From IMG/VR virus record IMGVR_UViG_3300023223_000475, positions 1 to 24,285 of that record: a stretch of DNA of 24,285 bases; one strand, given 5' to 3'. Of this stretch, positions 3,201 to 18,862 are shown in pieces. The notes beneath the pieces are model-generated. The model saw nothing but the letters and a program-made list of their open reading frames with translations. It did not search any database and was not told the DNA's origin. The first letter of the stretch is position 1, and each line of letters begins with the position of its first letter. This DNA is from a virus. The position numbers and the translations under genes were made by a program.

Positions 3201-3889
3201 ACTTTGGTTCAACAGGTCCATCAGTCGAATTCCTTTCAGATATAAAAGACCTACTTGATGCCGGCGAAGCATTGGCAAATTCTACGCTATCGACTGAAGA
3301 TAAAATTCTGGTACAAAACGAAGAACAGACCGACCTATTAAAACAGATCGCATTAGGCAACGCAAGCATCGCTCTTGCTGGAATTGGCGGACTTTCCAAC
3401 GCAAGTTTATTGCGATCGGGCGAGTCAATCGACGATATATCCAAAAGATTTACTGGACTGAATGAGCTTCCGACGTTAACCGTCAGGAAGTTAAAGGCAT
3501 TAGCAGGCTTTGATTTTAGCGCAGAAGAAAATAAAAAACGTTCATTTGCTGAATTTGCAAAAGCCAATCCGGACAAGGGAGTTTTGTTTAACTCATTGGT
3601 AGAGTTATTGGGTGGCGAGGGTCAGACATTTGCAGATGGCGGCATTGCTTCAGGCTTCGGCCTTGTGGGCGAGCGCGGCCCGGAAATAGTAAACTTTGGA
3701 AGTCCTTCACGCGTGTTCAGCAATAGCGAAAGCGGTTCAATGCTAGGTATGACAGCTATGTCACGGGCGTTAAATCAATTAACTTCATTAACACAGGCTA
3801 ACGGAATGGCGATAATAAACCGCCTTGAAAGAGTTGTTGCTCAAGTGTCCGAATCAAATGAAACCCTTGGAAGGCTTGTAAATAATTAG
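227..3889 (+). CDS. Tail tape measure protein
   Basis: This 1220-residue protein is the longest gene in the window and sets tail length in siphoviruses while acting in the tail lumen. Residues about 80-240 match the tape-measure N-terminal domain pattern, with the characteristic stretch LRQQLGERIPGTMKIAADAM at about 188-207. A long helical region follows. A Gly/Ala-rich part then leads to a hydrophobic segment (APFLIAAAIPLIIGAL), typical of the membrane-active portion. The C-terminus carries the common tape-measure ending FADGGIASGFGLVGERGPEI. The start ATG has an AAGGGG ribosome site about 10 bases upstream and lies 2 bp after the previous stop. Upstream is a chaperone-like gene and downstream a tail-tip gene, the usual order. 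Confidence is high from length, motifs and position. Confidence 0.95.
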   Translation: MVNETPIDIVIVDKTKRGRDQVVKSLDDIEKAAGGTGRAIGGAEKSLTKFGSAGVTTKKILTGVVAALSIRQIVQFTRSIVDATVELEGLNITLETVFGSVQEAQKQFRFVAGEADRLGISLINSEKSFAKFAAATTGAGISVENTRKIFTSISEASAVLNLNTADTNLVFIALEQIASKGVVSMEELRQQLGERIPGTMKIAADAMDLPIAQFQKLVAAGEVISDEFLPKFADALSEKFGAGVEKATDRAAASFARFENAVFNLQTSIGRSGLVDALAGIADNMTLIVKAATDLSRVEIFTGQGKGGIFGLAAIGETISGIGIRIKDEVEIVVGSIITAEQKITKLRSDLAKLGQDPRFSEKGRSRITKAIEKEEKALKTLIMRRKVLLGITEEDIAARKKALVVGVTEGKIASKLIDSLEGKAQTLRLSTAATVEETLALLDLTDATTGPGGQVEAIKKLLTEIDRLEQKKKESSKGFDVMAEAGKNAFNDIKDAADDALVNLFEGNIQNVKDFFNEVKSIGIRALVEIGTSKALSGFGFNAATGAFGGARTRGAGAAGGGGIGGSDIASTGLSIAGGGIANAAGFSFGLGGFGGIPFGGFAGATGVAAGGGAASLGSTVLAGIGAAAPFLIAAAIPLIIGALQKQKRAFSGAITAISETGEFTSERSKASSVTDTNAVDALFGTVTGFLATISQQTGARFGEGTNLGVELGKDANDFRILVEDEFIDSLDNIKEKIAFDPQDEESISNAIANVTLRFLETADVGDDVAIALQNINSELTSADELLSDLTFAANFRGLFLPIKDTFTEFEATIRELTIAFEEASETAKRLGLDENVLTANRVVANKQIKDDFDNQIRRQLLGVRDPQSLALENLNIEFAEIRRNAIAAGADLLQVEQLFAEERSDIISEGIRSASASLTAGVSRFLSGIGLFRNKLELDPKLSLSTNAQRAAAAQGIFSSLQARIAGGDITALDELQRTSEDTLSAIIDNFGSTGPSVEFLSDIKDLLDAGEALANSTLSTEDKILVQNEEQTDLLKQIALGNASIALAGIGGLSNASLLRSGESIDDISKRFTGLNELPTLTVRKLKALAGFDFSAEENKKRSFAEFAKANPDKGVLFNSLVELLGGEGQTFADGGIASGFGLVGERGPEIVNFGSPSRVFSNSESGSMLGMTAMSRALNQLTSLTQANGMAIINRLERVVAQVSESNETLGRLVNN

Positions 3890-12251: not shown

Positions 12252-12406
12252 TTTCCAAGATTCCTTATAGTTATTTGTAAACTCTTCCACCACGCAAAAC
12301 CCCAAGTATGAACAAAGCATTTATCGGAGTTCAGCGCAAGACATGTTTTTTTCGTACATGCCGGGGTAGGGCAGGTCGGCCAGTGTGTTTTATATGCTTC
12401 GGTCAT
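12248..12406 (-). CDS. Small Cys-rich protein (52 aa)
   Basis: Start ATG 12406 overlaps the HNH gene's stop (ATGA) and the stop overlaps the next start in the same manner. A GAGGAAG site lies about 7 bases upstream of the ATG. The product has four Cys at positions 12, 17, 22 and 30 (WPTCPTPACTKKTCLALN, then DKCFVH) followed by several Trp, a pattern that could bind zinc. Similar short Cys-rich proteins are common in phage early operons. The coupling on both sides is the main evidence that this is a real gene. Confidence 0.55.
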   Translation of the reverse strand: MTEAYKTHWPTCPTPACTKKTCLALNSDKCFVHTWGFAWWKSLQITIRNLGK

Positions 12407-12897
12407 CGCGCTTCCTCTGGAAAGTTTAAGTATGCGAATTCACCATGATGGTTTTTTGCAAAGTTATCGTATGATTTTGCTGCTTCAATTTCACAGTTAA
12501 AAGACCCAATAAAATGAACCTTGCCGCCAACCCTCGACTTAGCCATCCACTTTTTACTACTTTTATGCCACCCAACGCCTCTAAAAATACTGCTTCTGCC
12601 TGACAATGGCGCCTTGTTGTATTGATTTTGTGCGTTGGTTGCGTTTCTTAAATTATATTTTTGGTTATTTAAGCTCTCCGTGTCAGCGTGGTCGGTTTCA
12701 ATTCCCTTCGGCGTTTTGTTGATTTCTCGGTGCATTTTTATTGTCTTAGACCCTTTAGGTTCTGATTTTTGTCTATTTCTAGCGGCATACCATTTATTTC
12801 TACTTTTATGCGCAAACCACTTCCATTGCATTAACCATTCATAGTCATCGTCGTCAACAAGTGCAACCATACCCTGTGTTAGTGGAATTTTTCTCAT
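12403..12897 (-). CDS. HNH endonuclease with AP2 DNA-binding domain
   Basis: A 164-residue protein. Residues about 50-92 carry the HNH_3-type nuclease core: M55-H56-R-E-I, then ETDHADTESLNNQKYNLR with D69-H70 and N82, typical of homing-type HNH enzymes that nick or cut DNA. Residues about 102-158 form an AP2 domain (SIFRGVGWHKSSKKWMAKSR, then HFIGSF and EAAKSYDNFA), the usual DNA-binding partner in phage homing endonucleases. The start overlaps the ATPase stop (TAATG), with AGGAG upstream. It interrupts an otherwise functional operon, as free-standing homing genes do. Its target is unknown. Confidence 0.9.
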   Translation of the reverse strand: MRKIPLTQGMVALVDDDDYEWLMQWKWFAHKSRNKWYAARNRQKSEPKGSKTIKMHREINKTPKGIETDHADTESLNNQKYNLRNATNAQNQYNKAPLSGRSSIFRGVGWHKSSKKWMAKSRVGGKVHFIGSFNCEIEAAKSYDNFAKNHHGEFAYLNFPEEAR

Positions 12898-13829
12898 TAA
12901 GTATATTCTCCTGATTGTTGCGGCTCGACTTCGCCATTTGAAATGTCATATTCATTCGCAATAGATCGGAACTCGTTCTTTTCGCTTTCCGAAAGCCGCC
13001 CAAGAGATTCTTTACTTGCAGGGGCCAACCCCTCCAAAAATTCGGTTAACGCAACGTTGCCCCCTTCGGCCGCTGACCTACATACATTTTTTAATTGTTC
13101 AAGTGGCTCATCTACAGCCGCGCCGCCTGATAACCATTCCTTGACCGCCGTTCCTGACTCAGCAACGAGCCGCTTGTCAGGTGGAAACATATGTTCGAGT
13201 GCTTCCGGGCATTTTGTAAGAGTAGGAAACTTCGAATCAGTGTCAAGCGTCATCGATACGATCATTTCATATATAAAATCTTTTTCCTGAATAGGCTGAA
13301 GCCCCTGCGAAGTGATCGTCGCGTCATAACCTGACCCGGTCTGAACCAATTTTTCACGCGCCCGCAGACAAAATATAATATCCATACGGGTCTGTAATAG
13401 CTTGTTCATCATTTTTTTATGTTCAGACTTCGGATAGGCCCACTTGTTCAAGCCCTTGGCGACGTTGCCCTTTGAGTTTGGCGTTTCGCTTAACTCAATA
13501 CAGCCGCCGGTCCCTTCCCATGCGTGGCTCATACTGTCTATGATCAGAACCCCGTAACCATCGCGTTCAAATGCCTCGATCGCCTCGATATATCTACGAG
13601 GCCCAAATGGCGGACACATTTCATAGACGTCGAAACCTTCCGGCAACACGTCAGCATATAGCGACGCCCGTCCAGATTCCGTATCAATAAACCCGATCTT
13701 CCGACCGTCGGCCATGCCTGACGCAAGTAATAATGCTGAATAAGTTTTTCCACTTCCAGACTGACCGGAAAGTCCGATCAATGCGGGTACGTTTTGCCTT
13801 ACGGCCTTTTTAATAGGTATTGCTTCCAT
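12897..13829 (-). CDS. Sak4-like RecA-fold ATPase (recombination)
   Basis: A 310-residue protein with an AAGAAGGA site upstream. Walker A is GQSGSGKTY at residues 22-30, and Walker B is VLIIDS at about 94-99, preceded by a Gly-Tyr-Gly. FIDTESGRAS at 48-57 matches the loop after the first strand in AAA_24/Sak4 proteins. The short RecA-like core, the NKWAYPKSEHKKMMNKLLQ segment and the REKLV stretch fit phage Sak4-type single-strand annealing or pairing ATPases, which usually work with an SSB. The last 60 residues are an acidic helical extension. The gene follows an exonuclease by 18 bases, the usual pairing in a phage recombination module. No SSB gene is visible here. Confidence 0.8.
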   Translation of the reverse strand: MEAIPIKKAVRQNVPALIGLSGQSGSGKTYSALLLASGMADGRKIGFIDTESGRASLYADVLPEGFDVYEMCPPFGPRRYIEAIEAFERDGYGVLIIDSMSHAWEGTGGCIELSETPNSKGNVAKGLNKWAYPKSEHKKMMNKLLQTRMDIIFCLRAREKLVQTGSGYDATITSQGLQPIQEKDFIYEMIVSMTLDTDSKFPTLTKCPEALEHMFPPDKRLVAESGTAVKEWLSGGAAVDEPLEQLKNVCRSAAEGGNVALTEFLEGLAPASKESLGRLSESEKNEFRSIANEYDISNGEVEPQQSGEYT

Positions 13830-13847
13830 GCTTTTTCCTTCTTTGAG

Positions 13848-15095
13848 TTAGTCTTCAAGCGCCCACTGCGGACACTCAATGTCTGACAATGCTTTAAATG
13901 GCATCCAATTTATCCATGCGTCAGAACCGTATTTATTAACATTTTCGACGTAGTTTTTCAACAACCTTCTGTATAAATTTTCACCAGAAATAAAATAATT
14001 GTTTCGGCTTCCTTCCGCCGATTCTCTTTCCTCGAAGCCCTTTCCAAGTATCTCGAAAGGCTCTTGTTGCTCAATGAAAACAAGCGCATATTTATGATTT
14101 TCATTTGCAAGCGCCTCTTGCGCCAATTCCCATTGTTCATTGTTCGCGGTCTTTATGATAACGCCTTTCTTCTTACTTAGCTTCTGAAGCGCCCTGAATC
14201 CATCCATATACATAACAGACTGAAGGTGATATTTATTACCGAAAATCGCTTTGATCATAGCGGTTTCAAAGTTTATAGACATAAAATTATTGAACGTCTT
14301 CAAGTCGAACTTTGTGTTCGCCGTAAGATAATCGATACGGGCCTTTAGCCTGACGCCCGTTTCTTCGTCGTCCCATACGATCGTAACTTCTGCGTAACCG
14401 TCTGTAAATCGGTCGTTGTAGTCGGGATTAATCGCAATCATCTTTCGGGCCGATTGTGCTTTTTCAAACATTTCGTCGGTGACTATTAGTTGCCCGCGCT
14501 CTTCAACATTGTGTTCAAACTCTTCGATCATATTATCCCATATCAAAACATCGCGGTTCATTTGACTCGCCATAATTTGAATGCGATCTATTAGTTCGGG
14601 CTTATTGCCGGAGCTACCTTCGCCATTATCTTTTAACCATTGTTTAAGATCGGTTGCCGTCCGAAGGGCTTCCGGGTAATGATCGGGGTTCGGACGAACT
14701 GCAAAACTATCTTCGAATGTTTCAGGCTCTAACACCATTGTATGTAGCATCTTGCCCCATAACATTTGCGGGCTGATCTTGTCGTCGGTGAAGTCCGGCG
14801 CATGTAGTACATGATACCAAAAGTTATAAGGTGAAATTTCAAGCTTCTTAAACTCTGAATGAGATCGTGCGTCTAGTCTGATGTATTGCTCGAACGGCAG
14901 GTCAAAATATATACCCGGCTCGATTGCGACTCTTTTATTTTCGTTAACTTCTGATTTATTTTCGCTTTCTAACGAATCGACCGTTATATGTCCCGAATTA
15001 ATTTCGCTGTTTTCTAAATTAATTTCGTTGTTTTCGGCGTATAATTTATCAACCGATTCGATTGCTTCGCTGCTTATTTGTATATCTATGCTCAT
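13848..15095 (-). CDS. RecE/DUF3799-like exonuclease with SAP-like insert
   Basis: A 415-residue protein. Residues 1-56 are low-complexity and rich in Asn, Glu and Ser, including a 7-residue tandem repeat. From about 57 the RecE/DUF3799 pattern begins (GIYFDLPFEQYIRLDARSHS), followed by LWGKMLHTMVLEP with H118. The PD-(D/E)XK core is visible: E236, D255 (KARIDYLT), D264-x-K266 (TKFDLKTF), then Q and Y in KYHLQSVMYMDG. Residues about 145-172 (TATDLKQWLKDNGEGSSGNK, then PELIDRI) look like a SAP DNA-binding motif inserted before the core. Such enzymes resect double-strand ends to leave 3' overhangs for annealing. The stop lies 18 bases before the ATPase gene; the start overlaps the preceding gene (ATGA). 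Confidence 0.8.
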   Translation of the reverse strand: MSIDIQISSEAIESVDKLYAENNEINLENSEINSGHITVDSLESENKSEVNENKRVAIEPGIYFDLPFEQYIRLDARSHSEFKKLEISPYNFWYHVLHAPDFTDDKISPQMLWGKMLHTMVLEPETFEDSFAVRPNPDHYPEALRTATDLKQWLKDNGEGSSGNKPELIDRIQIMASQMNRDVLIWDNMIEEFEHNVEERGQLIVTDEMFEKAQSARKMIAINPDYNDRFTDGYAEVTIVWDDEETGVRLKARIDYLTANTKFDLKTFNNFMSINFETAMIKAIFGNKYHLQSVMYMDGFRALQKLSKKKGVIIKTANNEQWELAQEALANENHKYALVFIEQQEPFEILGKGFEERESAEGSRNNYFISGENLYRRLLKNYVENVNKYGSDAWINWMPFKALSDIECPQWALED

Positions 15096-15301
15096 AATAT
15101 TTCTTTTTGTTCTGTTATAAAACTCTTCCTAAGTGTAACGTCGTCACCTTCGAACTTGACATTGTGAGCAAGCATCGCGTTGGTCGTGCCGTCAACAATT
15201 ATGCCATGAAGCCAAGTTTCACATTGGCCCGTCACCTTAATGCTAATCTTTCCCTTTCTTGTGCAGTTTAACGCATATAATTTATTTTCTTCGTATGTCA
15301 T
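15092..15301 (-). CDS. Small beta-rich unknown protein (69 aa)
   Basis: Start and stop overlap the flanking genes (ATGA on both sides), with AAGGAAA upstream. The protein starts MTYEENKLYALNCTRKGKIS and continues with alternating strands (GIIVDGTTNAMLAHNVKFEG), suggesting a small beta fold. It is the second gene of the operon, directly before the exonuclease, so an accessory role in recombination is possible but not shown. No family recognised. Confidence 0.5.
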   Translation of the reverse strand: MTYEENKLYALNCTRKGKISIKVTGQCETWLHGIIVDGTTNAMLAHNVKFEGDDVTLRKSFITEQKEIL

Positions 15302-15519
15302 AACATTTCCTTATGTGTAAGCTTATGTTCGTCATTCTCGTTCGGAAGGCTTTCTTCGAGTTCTTCAATTATATCGTCGATCTCTTCGACCTTTTTTTCA
15401 AGATGAGTAAGAGCCTTGTTAGCATCTTCAATACCATCAGTATATTGCTTGCGTAAAGCCTTTAATAAATCAAGATTGGTTTCGTCTTGCTGGCGCGAAA
15501 ACGCCGATTCTTTTTCCAT
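15298..15519 (-). CDS. Small coiled-coil protein, first gene of minus operon
   Basis: A 73-residue, highly charged helical protein, with heptad-like Leu/Ile spacing between about 18 and 58 (LLKALRKQYTDGIEDANKAL, then LEKKVEEIDDIIEELEE). It has no Cys or membrane segment. An AAGGAAA ribosome site lies just before the ATG and the promoter region lies upstream, so it is the first gene of the recombination operon. Short coiled-coil proteins at this position are frequent in phages and have no assigned function. Confidence 0.55.
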   Translation of the reverse strand: MEKESAFSRQQDETNLDLLKALRKQYTDGIEDANKALTHLEKKVEEIDDIIEELEESLPNENDEHKLTHKEML

Positions 15520-15545
15520 GTTATTTCCTTATTAAATTAAAAATC

Positions 15546-15580
15546 TTGACGAACGTAAAATAAAAATATATCTATGTCAA
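15546..15580. promoter_or_regulatory. Divergent, face-to-face promoter region
   Basis: Between the divergent genes at 15519 (-) and 15617 (+), TTGACG at 15546-15551 is a -35 candidate for rightward transcription, with TATATC/TATCTA at 15567-15574 as -10. A perfect TTGACA on the minus strand (15575-15580) is a -35 for leftward transcription, with only a weak TACGTT 17 bases on. The two -35 boxes form an inverted repeat and each falls near the other's predicted start site, so the promoters would overlap. The surrounding DNA is very AT-rich. The rest of the 97-base gap holds only the ribosome sites. Confidence 0.45.
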
Positions 15581-15616
15581 TATATTTTTTCATATAAAGT
15601 TTTTATAGGATTTAAA

Positions 15617-15889
15617 ATGACTCCACAACCAATAAAATTACAGAAAGCTATGGAAGATGCTCAAGGATGTTTGAATATCTGCGGAATTTCTGTTGCAAGC
15701 ATTTGCCGCAAAGCTGATATGACCGAAGCAACTTTTCATAATTGGAAAAGAACAGGAACGGGACAAGTAGAACAGATTAATAAATTTTTAAGAATAGTTA
15801 TAAAGGAAATTGATAATGCAAAATTGGGCGGAAATAACAAAAGAAAAGAAGAAAAAAAACAAGTACGGGGCCAAAAAACAGACGGTTGA
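15617..15889 (+). CDS. Small HTH DNA-binding regulator
   Basis: A 90-residue protein with TAGGAT about 8 bases before the ATG. Residues about 22-46 hold a helix-turn-helix: SVASICRKADMTEATFHNWK, with the recognition helix probably MTEATFHNWKR. The C-terminal tail is Lys-rich. It is transcribed away from the recombination operon, next to a shared control region, the classical position of a Cro/repressor-type regulator. Its 3' end overlaps the next gene by 74 bases in another frame. Which promoters it binds cannot be read from the sequence. Confidence 0.6.
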   Translation: MTPQPIKLQKAMEDAQGCLNICGISVASICRKADMTEATFHNWKRTGTGQVEQINKFLRIVIKEIDNAKLGGNNKRKEEKKQVRGQKTDG

Positions 15890-16361
15890 CAGGGAAACGT
15901 TTGCATCCAAAGGGGAATATAAGCGTTATCACATGCTCGCCACTATGGAAGGTCTTGGCGAGATTCGCGCCCTAAAACACGAAGAAACATTTCACTTCCC
16001 GAAACTCACGTCCGGGCGCTCCGGGCAAAAACTTTTTATAAAACCTGACTTTACGTATCAGTTACGAATCAAGCAACGGGGACAGCTCGTATTAAAGACG
16101 TTGGACGACGGATCAACCGCTTGGGACATTCGTCAATACTGCGAAGAACACCTTCCAGACTACGACACAAGCATGTTGTTATTCGAGCCGGTGGAAGACG
16201 GGGTCATTGACGTATGGATAAATATAGTCGAAGATTTTAAATCGCCTGTAACTTTTAAGAAAAGTGATTTCCTTTGGAAGTGGGCAATTTTAAAACATTT
16301 TTATCCGCAATATAAACAACAGGTAAGCTTTCGAGGGGGCAAAATACATGAGATGGTATAA
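15816..16361 (+). CDS. DUF1064-like (PD-(D/E)XK-type) phage protein
   Basis: I start it at ATG 15816, with AAGGAA about 9 bases upstream; a TTG at 15810 is in frame. The product has 181 residues. Residues 15-40 (NKYGAKKQTVDRETFASKGE, then YKRYHML) match the start of DUF1064, and residues 75-82 (IKPDFTYQ) and 138-143 (VEDFKS, the D-x-K pair) are the other family landmarks, which resemble nuclease motif positions. Between them lies an insert of about 55 residues that is unusual in length. These proteins are widespread in phage replication regions. Catalysis is not established. It overlaps the regulator gene by 74 bases and the next gene by 14. Confidence 0.65.
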   Translation: MQNWAEITKEKKKKNKYGAKKQTVDRETFASKGEYKRYHMLATMEGLGEIRALKHEETFHFPKLTSGRSGQKLFIKPDFTYQLRIKQRGQLVLKTLDDGSTAWDIRQYCEEHLPDYDTSMLLFEPVEDGVIDVWINIVEDFKSPVTFKKSDFLWKWAILKHFYPQYKQQVSFRGGKIHEMV

Positions 16362-17250
16362 ATCACAGGCATGTTTCGTAACTGATCCGAAGGTCGGAGT
16401 TGCTGCAAGAAAGGGCGGAGTCCCAAAATATGTAATTCTTGCACTCTTTCATATCTTGCTTTCGCGATCATGTGAAAAGAATGATCCGTCATTTTTATCG
16501 ACCGCAACGGACGAAGAAACTTTCATCATGGAGGTCGAAGAACAGACCGGCTTACTTCCCGCGTATATACGAAAGGGACTCGTCGGACTCGACGCCGTCA
16601 ACCTAATTGACCTAAAAAAACTACAGGTTTCGAAGTGGGAAGAGTACCAAAAAGACGGGACCAATAAGGATAGACAGCAACGTCACCGCGACAAACAGGG
16701 CGTAACGGACAGTAACGCGCGTAACGCTGACGTAACGGCACGTAACGCGCGTAACGGTGAACCTCCGTTACATAACGTTAAGAAGAGAGTAGATAAGAAG
16801 AGAATAGATAAGAAAGAAAAAGAACTACCTAGCGGTAGTTCCAAAAAACCCCCCAAGCAAAAGGAAATGAATCTTGATGATTGGGAAACAGAAAATACAC
16901 CATTGACTATCGAATCTCTTGATCGATGGATGCATGATAACGATCTCGACCCGAACCTTGTCAAAGAAGAGCTTGCGAATTTTCGTGATCGCTGCTATGG
17001 CAAGGGATATGCATATCTCGACTTTCGCCGAATGTTTCAAGGATGGTGCAGGTCAACCGAATACGGCCGCCCCGGCCTAAAAGCTTTTAAATTCAACCAA
17101 CCCAAAGGAAATCAACATGGAAAACAAACTTTCAACTCAGTCGGACAAGACATCATTGATAAACGAAAGCAACGAGCAAGCGAGCGGCAGACTGACGACA
17201 ACAATAATCACGATATGCCAGATGCAAAAGAAGTACGGGACAACGCCTGA
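16348..17250 (+). CDS. Replication initiator / DnaD-like protein
   Basis: A 300-residue protein with GAGGGGG about 8 bases before the ATG. The N-terminal domain (about 1-105: MRWYKSQACFVTDPKVGVAA, then LKKLQVSKWEEYQ) follows the winged-helix pattern of phage replisome-organiser proteins, which begin with a M-x-W-x-x motif and end in a W-E-x-x-Q stretch. A basic, low-complexity linker follows (about 105-172), encoded by the iteron-like repeats. The C-terminal part (about 175-250) has a DnaD/helicase-recruiting look (ELANFRDRCYGKGYAYLDFR, then MFQGWCRS). By analogy with lambda O it would bind the repeats inside its own gene and recruit the helicase loader. The last 134 bases are shared with the next gene in another frame. 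Confidence 0.65.
   Translation: MRWYKSQACFVTDPKVGVAARKGGVPKYVILALFHILLSRSCEKNDPSFLSTATDEETFIMEVEEQTGLLPAYIRKGLVGLDAVNLIDLKKLQVSKWEEYQKDGTNKDRQQRHRDKQGVTDSNARNADVTARNARNGEPPLHNVKKRVDKKRIDKKEKELPSGSSKKPPKQKEMNLDDWETENTPLTIESLDRWMHDNDLDPNLVKEELANFRDRCYGKGYAYLDFRRMFQGWCRSTEYGRPGLKAFKFNQPKGNQHGKQTFNSVGQDIIDKRKQRASERQTDDNNNHDMPDAKEVRDNA
16701..16780 (+). repeat. Iteron-like array, candidate replication origin
   Basis: The heptamer CGTAACG occurs at 16701, 16720, 16731, 16741 and 16750, with a variant AGTAACG at 16711. Spacing is 9-11 bases, close to one helical turn. Downstream lie an inverted copy (CGTTAC, 16766-16771) and a palindrome TAACGTTA (16773-16780). The array is inside the linker of the initiator-like gene, followed by a purine-rich stretch, an arrangement like lambda's origin inside gene O. 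Confidence 0.55.
16781..16812 (+). repeat. Purine-rich 15-bp tandem repeat
   Basis: Two copies of a 17-base purine-rich sequence, AGAAGAGAGTAGATAAG at 16781 and AGAAGAGAATAGATAAG at 16796, overlap with a period of 15 bases and one mismatch. They encode a five-residue repeat (KKRVD, KKRID). The position right after the iterons suits a helix-unwinding segment; this is inference. Confidence 0.5.
16822..16841 (+). repeat. 8-bp hairpin next to the iteron array
   Basis: GAACTACC (16822-16829) and GGTAGTTC (16834-16841) form a perfect 8-bp stem with a four-base loop (TAGC), inside the initiator-like coding sequence. It follows the purine-rich repeat by about 10 bases. It could be part of the origin or an mRNA structure; chance cannot be excluded. 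Confidence 0.4.
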
Positions 17251-17527
17251 AGAGCTTGAACTGAAGGAAGCGGGCTTTCAGATGATGCTTGCCGGCTATG
17301 ACATTGACGAAGTCGAAGCGGCGTTTATAAAATATTGCAAAAAACATGACGACATCCCGGCGCCGGCGAATATCATTGGAATAATTGAAAACCGCCCGGT
17401 CTATTCCGAAGCAATTTACCGACAGATTAAAGCGGACATACTTTGCCCAACAACGTTTGTCAGCAAGCAAGAGAAGCAATATCTTGAAGATTACAAGGTT
17501 TACATGCTCGGCGAGGCGGGATTATGA
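17117..17527 (+). CDS. Helicase-loader-like replication protein
   Basis: A 136-residue protein with AAAGGAAA about 6 bases before the ATG. Residues about 45-100 (PEELELKEAGFQMMLAGYDI, then DEVEAAFIKYCKKHDDIPAP and ANIIGIIE) follow a pattern common in phage replication regions: a helix with a G-F-x-x-x-L-x-x-Y/x-D stretch, an acidic helix and a P-x-P-A-x-I-I motif, as in proteins that load the replicative helicase. The first 35 residues overlap the initiator gene's C-terminal coding sequence by 134 bases in another frame. The position directly after the initiator is that of lambda P. A family call beyond that is inference. Confidence 0.5.
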   Translation: MENKLSTQSDKTSLINESNEQASGRLTTTIITICQMQKKYGTTPEELELKEAGFQMMLAGYDIDEVEAAFIKYCKKHDDIPAPANIIGIIENRPVYSEAIYRQIKADILCPTTFVSKQEKQYLEDYKVYMLGEAGL

Positions 17528-17955: not shown

Positions 17956-18414
17956 ATGGGCGGGACCAAAGAAGAAACAATTTCACCGACACCGGAAAGG
18001 TTAAAAAAATATGGCGGAGCTAAAAAGATCAATGGCGTTTTTAAGGTTAAAGCTACTTGCAAGCTCGATGTTTATTTTAATAATAATTGGATTGATGTTT
18101 ATCAATGGTCCGCCGGCATACAGCTATTCATGGATTGGTATTATTCAACCTACAACAACGGTTCATCAATCAGATATGACGACATGCCCCGCGGTGCGAT
18201 GGTTAATATATCAGAAAACCAGATCGACGCTACCATTCGCTACGACCGCGCAGTTAAATACCTACGGTCCCCGAACTACAAAACGATTGTTCAGGGGGTC
18301 TGTATATTCAACAGCGGCCTTAACGACTTCAGCGACAAGTGGGCGAAAGGACATGCGGCGTACGATCTTAAATCAGGACTTGACGAATTGGTCCGTCATT
18401 ATCGTATAAAATGA
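17956..18414 (+). CDS. DUF6456-like regulator candidate
   Basis: A 152-residue protein. The C-terminal 50 residues (about 103-152: YKTIVQGVCIFNSGLNDFSD, then KWAKGHAAYDLKSGLDELVR and HYRIK) resemble the DUF6456 domain of alphaproteobacterial regulators: a V-C-x-F-x-x-G-L helix, a spacer and a final L-x-x-x-L-D-x-L-x-x-H-Y helix. The N-terminal part has a basic stretch and aromatic-rich beta sequence. A role in transcription control is likely by analogy. The ATG lacks a clear ribosome site and lies almost at a predicted transcription start. The match is from memory, so the call is moderate. Confidence 0.45.
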   Translation: MGGTKEETISPTPERLKKYGGAKKINGVFKVKATCKLDVYFNNNWIDVYQWSAGIQLFMDWYYSTYNNGSSIRYDDMPRGAMVNISENQIDATIRYDRAVKYLRSPNYKTIVQGVCIFNSGLNDFSDKWAKGHAAYDLKSGLDELVRHYRIK

Positions 18415-18650
18415 GTGATAAAGCTAAAAAGAGTATAATTGACCCCGATTTAGTCAGCAAAGCTATGAACACAGTTGCCGAGCAAAACGCAAAGAAATTA
18501 GAAAAAGAATTTAATTTAAATGCAAACAGCGCCGTCGCGCGCGGAATATTTTGGATGTGGTTTTTTTGGATTATAACAGCGTTTTTTTTCGGGGGAAATC
18601 CCGACATTCACGACGCGATTTTAAAATATACACAGACCTTATCCATGTAA
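18411..18650 (+). CDS. Small membrane protein (79 aa)
   Basis: The ATG overlaps the previous stop (ATGA). The first 45 residues are charged and helical; residues about 46-62 form one transmembrane segment rich in Trp and Phe (IFWMWFFWIITAFFFGG), followed by a short polar tail. No family recognised. The high aromatic content at the membrane is unusual but not diagnostic. Confidence 0.5.
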   Translation: MSDKAKKSIIDPDLVSKAMNTVAEQNAKKLEKEFNLNANSAVARGIFWMWFFWIITAFFFGGNPDIHDAILKYTQTLSM

Positions 18651-18676
18651 CGTAACGCGATTGGGACGCGTTTATT

Positions 18677-18862
18677 ATGGCTGAAGAACACACGGGCGAT
18701 TGTTCTATGTATAGATATCAGGACGGGCAAAAGATTTACGAGAATGATGTTATGATCGGCGACATCGTTTGTTGCGGTCACGGGTGTTACAAGGTCGTTG
18801 ACAAGATACCCACCGACGACGGATATTGGGAACTTGATCTTGAACCTGTAAAAACTCATTGA
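18677..18862 (+). CDS. Small Cys-containing protein (61 aa)
   Basis: A 61-residue acidic protein with Cys at about 9, 32, 33 and 37 (CSMY, then DIVCCGHGCYKVVDK), which might bind a metal. The ribosome site is weak (GGGACG about 12 bases upstream). The protein begins MAEEHTGDCSMYRYQDGQKI. It ends just before a strong promoter. No family recognised. Confidence 0.5.
   Translation: MAEEHTGDCSMYRYQDGQKIYENDVMIGDIVCCGHGCYKVVDKIPTDDGYWELDLEPVKTH

Follow-up and report, generated by a model that had tools for sequence, protein, structure and literature searches.

Several well-described phages carry their replication origin within the gene that encodes the initiator protein. In both SPP1 and lambda, repeats and an AT-rich DNA unwinding element located inside the initiator gene form a proven origin (PMC6316719, PMC7466680). 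The oriL of SPP1 lies in gene 38 and combines direct repeats with an AT-rich unwinding element; the repeats are bound by gp38, and gp39 loads the helicase (PMC6316719). In lambda and the Stx phages, the iterons and the AT-rich tract are likewise found within O (PMC7466680). In phage 80alpha, the loss of ORF20 could not be rescued in trans, and plasmid replication requires no more than ORF20-21 (PMC5499656).

Here we analyzed a stretch of 24,285 nucleotides from a virus record in IMG/VR (IMGVR_UViG_3300023223_000475, positions 1 to 24,285; hereafter the window). Our analysis indicates that bases 16701-16825 are very probably the replication origin of this phage, situated inside its own initiator gene in the layout of lambda and SPP1, with both initiator binding and origin activity being what we infer from this arrangement. 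The kind of origin is already known, as an in-gene origin with iterons followed by an unwinding tract is the organization of SPP1 oriL in gene 38 and lambda ori in O. The same elements are found here, namely short direct repeats in an initiator coding sequence that go beyond what coding explains, an adjacent AT-rich tract, and a loader gene immediately after (Table 1). The original prediction of an iteron-type origin within an initiator gene is supported by heptamers that are a DNA-level feature, by an initiator-like host gene with its loader, and by the recurrence of the array in annotated initiators such as orf15 of phage phi11.

Table 1. Features of the putative origin and initiator-loader module (positions in the window).
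Feature	Position	Strand	Basis or details
Initiator-like gene, 300 aa	16348..17250	+	ORF; winged-helix prediction; profile links
Iteron array	16701..16756	+	CGTAACG at 16701, 16720, 16731, 16741 and 16750; AGTAACG at 16711
Inverted iteron and palindrome	16765..16780		CGTTAC (inverted GTAACG) at 16766-16771; TAACGTTA at 16773-16780
Purine-rich, AT-rich tract, candidate DNA unwinding element	16779..16825	+	15-bp tandem repeat, then A-rich run
8-bp hairpin, GAACTACC-TAGC-GGTAGTTC	16822..16841		Beside the purine tract
Putative G39P/lambda-P-type helicase loader gene, 136 aa	17117..17527	+	Overlaps the initiator gene; family profile and predicted fold

The individual repeats described in that prediction were all recovered in place, including the five CGTAACG copies and one variant spaced 9-11 bp apart as well as the inverted copy, the palindrome, the 15-bp purine-rich tandem repeat, and the 8-bp hairpin, which are present inside the same ORF. 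The start-to-start spacings of the iterons are, in order, 10, 9, 11, 10, and 9. The inverted iteron and the palindrome TAACGTTA contribute outward and inward TAACG cores, and nine such cores occur within 16703-16780 when both strands are considered. A 30-bp direct repeat (16701-16730 and 16731-16760, 87%) covers the array, and each of its units already has three core copies in two frames. CGTAACG is the sole 7-mer with five copies per 60 bp in the whole 24-kb window, and the best word in 100 dinucleotide shuffles never reached five (four copies in two shuffles and at most three in the others). Pairing between the direct and inverted iterons also gives the region a strong single-stranded DNA fold (z -6.1).

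Adjoining the iterons is a tract at 16779-16825 that is predicted from sequence stability to melt easily. It consists of 72% A+T and 87% purine, a purine skew that is matched by 5 of 24,239 windows, and when 47-bp windows are ranked by stability it belongs to the bottom 1.4% for the contig and the bottom 0.1% for the gene. Its tandem repeat units are located at 16779-16793 and 16794-16808 (93%). The neighboring hairpin (16821-16842), when read on the minus strand, is followed by a T-rich run and resembles an intrinsic terminator. Cumulative GC skew, which had been proposed as an additional origin marker, was rejected; its minimum near 15-16 kb coincides with a switch of coding strand, and this confounding makes it uninformative.

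As the repeats lie in a coding sequence, where they specify residues 118-137 of the product of ORF 16348-17250, it had been suggested that coding constraint could be part of their cause. Coding alone proved insufficient to account for the heptamers. The heptamer is read in two forward frames, as GTA-ACG (Val-Thr) at 16701 and 16731 and as CGT-AAC-G (Arg-Asn) at 16720, 16741, and 16750, and because it occupies two frames, the repeated Asn-Ala-Arg peptide alone cannot yield the array. When the amino acids were fixed and codons were drawn from the phage's own usage, none of 200,000 synonymous redraws contained five copies; the maximum was four, which was reached three times. With two frames, spacings that are not tied to three, and redraws that fall short of the count, the heptamers are a DNA-level feature.

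The gene that contains the array was expected to be initiator-like, and we find that it is, as a winged helix is predicted, profiles link it to array-bearing initiator ORFs, and a helicase loader gene follows. The product is predicted to consist of a winged-helix domain (approximately residues 1-102), a basic helix with the sequence DRQQRHRDKQ (104-122), a disordered linker, and a C-terminal helical part. The array encodes the linker that is predicted to be disordered, and the DNA there would therefore be free to be shaped by binding. In an AlphaFold2 model produced with the proteins of the array loci, the N-terminal domain has a pLDDT of about 82-96 and comprises helices at 14-23, 27-44, 53-67, and 71-83 with a short wing, and the linker is below 60. 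Structural comparison of residues 6-102 with VIA-align returned mostly winged-helix DNA-binding proteins at modest Z scores of 4-7, and matches in a viral structure library included primosomal protein 1, DUF1376, and replication-initiation proteins. Foldseek returned no significant match to this model in the PDB, and our statements on its fold are based on VIA-align.

At the sequence level, the initiator is more isolated. Scans of Pfam and PHROGs identified no family at E values up to 0.1, lambda O included, and direct homolog searches of IMG/VR, INPHARED, and GTDB found no close relative. Single-sequence links are weak (phmmer, 0.0024), and pairwise BLAST gave 2e-8 and 6e-8 with the proteins of loci L065 and L024, each E value applying to one comparison only. 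An iterative profile built from residues 1-116 of the window protein reached approximately 60 ORFs, most of which bear arrays, and the iterative N-domain profile extended to members of Phage_rep_org_N and DUF1376; the window N-domain itself had no direct Pfam match. The C-terminal part matched a profile of O-like C-termini weakly (8.5 bits), which we do not rely on. Judging from these sequence comparisons, the nearest kin appear to be replisome organizers of the Phage_rep_org_N/DUF1376 kind that are accompanied by an SPP1-like loader, although the link is distant, and the protein is outside the detectable lambda O sequence family. The designation of the origin as “lambda-O-type” consequently stands for its architecture but not for the protein, which has no Pfam or PHROG match to the lambda O family.

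The adjacent gene provides a clearer connection to known systems. In other contigs, profile relatives of its product are mostly encoded 0.3-0.9 kb downstream of an array, an adjacency that is partly ascertained, as the database used consists of loci around arrays. Several of these relatives match PF11417 (G39P) or a PHROG helicase loader. The single sequence has no PF11417 match in Pfam, and the assignment to G39P is family-profile evidence: searched against the PDB, the family profile matched only SPP1 G39P (1no1, E 5e-10), and it still matched this protein at 2e-6 when relatives with a PF11417 match were left out. Using VIA-align, the best two structural matches of the AlphaFold2 model were lambda P (Z 7.2) and G39P (Z 7.0), the latter aligning over 66 of 67 residues, and the next, unrelated row had a Z score of 4.7. 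Foldseek found no significant match of the loader model in the PDB, and the fold statement is based on VIA-align together with the sequence profile; a tblastn search of phages with the loader also gave no match. Based on sequence and model comparisons, we consider ORFs 16348-17250 and 17117-17527 to be a putative initiator-loader module. Upstream of the initiator (12403-16361), the minus strand encodes recombination-type proteins, namely an HNH endonuclease with an AP2 domain, a Sak4-like ATPase, and an exonuclease VIII-like PDDEXK protein, and the plus strand contains a DUF1064/Holliday-junction-resolvase-like ORF.

This arrangement resembles several characterized phages in different respects. 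As in SPP1, repeats and an AT-rich element in the initiator gene precede a gene for a G39P-type loader, but SPP1 encodes its own helicase (G40P) alongside the initiator G38P and the loader G39P and has a second origin, oriR, neither of which was found in the window. The lambda ori in O, with the loader P, also has iterons that are followed mid-gene by an A-rich, purine-rich AT tract, with the loader gene next, and the window loader resembles lambda P in predicted fold. In contrast, the lambda iterons are four 18-bp repeats approximately 20-24 bp apart, unlike the heptamers in the window, and the window initiator lacks a match to the lambda O family. The candidate origin here is embedded in the initiator gene ahead of a loader gene, as in ORF20 of Staphylococcus phage 80alpha, but the 80alpha repeats contain neither GTAACG nor CGTTAC and its loader is DnaC-like. 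Profile searches tie the window initiator distantly to orf15 of Staphylococcus phage phi11 (Phage_rep_org_N, PF09681), which is surrounded by replication genes and has relatives annotated as replication initiation protein or replisome organizer. The linker-coding part of orf15 likewise carries an array with the GTAACG core in two frames, and a purine-rich tract comes after it; the copies are fewer (three direct and two inverted GTAACG). A close relative of orf15, in locus L018, shares approximately 20% identity with the window protein, to which it is only distantly related, and has a DnaB_2 C-terminal domain that was not detected in the window initiator.

If these likenesses extend to function, the N-terminal winged helix of the initiator would bind the GTAACG-core iterons, whose spacing is close to one helical turn, and the resulting nucleoprotein complex would, as the analogy to SPP1 oriL and lambda ori suggests, melt the purine-rich AT tract. 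The initiator would then recruit the product of the next gene, whose identity as a G39P/lambda-P-type helicase loader is supported, and the loader would deliver a DnaB-type helicase.

As no close relative of the initiator protein turned up in the collections, we surveyed them for the array instead. A scan of IMG/VR for three CGTAACG words separated by gaps of 0-6 bp returned at least 120 stretches, and the figures from the scans for array words are proportions among the matches listed rather than totals. After near-duplicates were removed, 41 of the 82 cases within an ORF were mid-gene and on the coding strand of an ORF of 180-450 aa, and another 17 had no ORF. Among the matches listed for GTDB genomes, this pattern was mostly located elsewhere. 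Many of the array ORFs read like initiators, with a winged-helix end, the sequence NAERQRRYRER or a similar one, the array, and low complexity. PHROGs annotated sampled array ORFs as replication initiation protein, replisome organizer, DnaD-like loader, or primosomal protein, and the array is found alongside more than one N-terminal family (Phage_rep_org_N in L018, DUF1376 in L009 and L011). Among the coding-strand genes listed, the heptamer was found in two frames in 40 of 55, with spacings modulo 3 of 71/44/40, compared to the control word GACATCG, which kept to one frame in 22 of 29 coding-strand genes and to multiples of three in 86 of 101 spacings. A few multi-frame cases of GACATCG look initiator-like (e.g., L475 and L480). 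Some initiator genes (L030:3131-3156 and 3458-3483, L014, L024) have two CGTAACG arrays, the first in the part coding for the winged helix (for L030, around residue 44) and the second in the linker.

Two other words of related composition, GCAATGC and CGATACG, were dropped as controls, as both proved to occupy the corresponding position in further initiator-type genes, in two or three frames; their arrays are apparently additional classes of the same in-gene array. Those of GCAATGC (L122-L241, e.g., L140 on the minus strand and L191:4534-4562) are in the linker of DUF1376-type and Lin1244_N-type phage genes, have a spacing of 11 bp in 126 of 170 instances, and occupy all three frames in 50 of 69 genes among the matches listed, and they apparently represent a second class of in-gene origin array. 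CGATACG arrays (L242-L333, e.g., L267:5435-5464) use two or three frames, are followed by KEKEKEK tracts, and mark a third class in DnaD-like/replisome-organizer genes. We also scanned IMG/VR with a degenerate DNA pattern for NAERQRRYRER that ends before the linker, in which the GTAACG core was not a selection criterion. This array-blind scan gave 20 stretches, 12 of which had at least 20 further codons. Eight of these 12 testable genes had 3-15 GTAACG/CGTTAC sites, where synonymous draws would give 0.3-2.4 (p at most 0.015 each), and the other four had none.

These results bear on other explanations for the repeats. They could reflect nothing more than a low-complexity linker, with an Asn-Ala-Arg/Val-Thr peptide, codon bias, and a 30-bp tandem duplication leaving the heptamers as a by-product that has no function in the DNA. 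The 30-bp direct repeat does span the array, the encoded linker is predicted to be disordered and of low complexity, and a random heptamer array in a phage is in most cases a protein repeat. We nonetheless regard this as very unlikely given the use of two frames, the spacings of 10 and 11, the lack of any redraw with five copies, and the recurrence of the heptamer at the same place in diverged genes, even those found without reference to it. Plasmid iteron arrays can also act in autoregulation, and the array might instead be an operator at which the initiator or another phage DNA-binding protein acts in autoregulation, as a roadblock, or in an antisense terminator region rather than at a replication start. 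A winged helix is typical of repressors too, and a terminator-like hairpin on the minus strand adjoins the tract. However, the array is in the middle of the gene, approximately 350 bp past the start codon, no promoter-like match was found on either strand of 16317-17303, and an array beside an unstable tract and then a helicase loader is the layout of proven origins, which leaves an operator highly improbable as well.

Binding by a host replication or nucleoid protein in place of the phage initiator would explain why different initiators share a heptamer, and the array does indeed accompany both Phage_rep_org_N and DUF1376 N-termini. Yet other initiator genes carry GCAATGC or CGATACG at the same place, which is what would be predicted were each initiator specific for a site of its own, and the repeats of lambda and SPP1 are bound by the phage initiator; we therefore give a host protein only the slightest probability. 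Some general points also count against an in-gene origin, namely that many regulators share the winged-helix fold, that part of the array is a 30-bp duplication, and that the initiator has neither a close relative nor a direct Pfam or PHROG match, with weak single-sequence links to its family. A better origin elsewhere in the genome is also conceivable because the 24-kb contig may be a fragment.

With an origin inside the initiator gene as the favored reading, an uncharacterized phage gains a precise, testable candidate origin together with an initiator-loader module. The mildly novel part is that one heptamer is common to divergent initiators, which we did not find described in the papers searched, none of which named CGTAACG as a phage origin. 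We see an even chance that GTAACG is a widely shared origin code, found in phages of Firmicutes, Proteobacteria, and unknown hosts, in initiators beyond the reach of single-sequence matching, and with at least two Pfam N-terminal families, with GCAATGC and CGATACG marking further classes. If so, the sequence by itself would suffice to call phage origins, as short words that recur in several frames within the initiator linker, and a heptamer common to divergent initiators would raise the question of how the binding specificity of winged-helix initiators is retained or altered. The multi-frame test, in which one short word recurs on the coding strand in mid-gene in two or three frames with codon-independent spacing, distinguishes origins at the DNA level from repeats of the protein, and through it at least three heptamer classes of in-gene arrays came to light in IMG/VR. 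Apart from the array, the window has two overlapping GTAACG cores (GTAACGTAACG) at 18647-18657, where they span the end of ORF 18411-18650 and part of the gap that precedes the ORF at 18677, and which are possibly a second site for the initiator or a chance occurrence.
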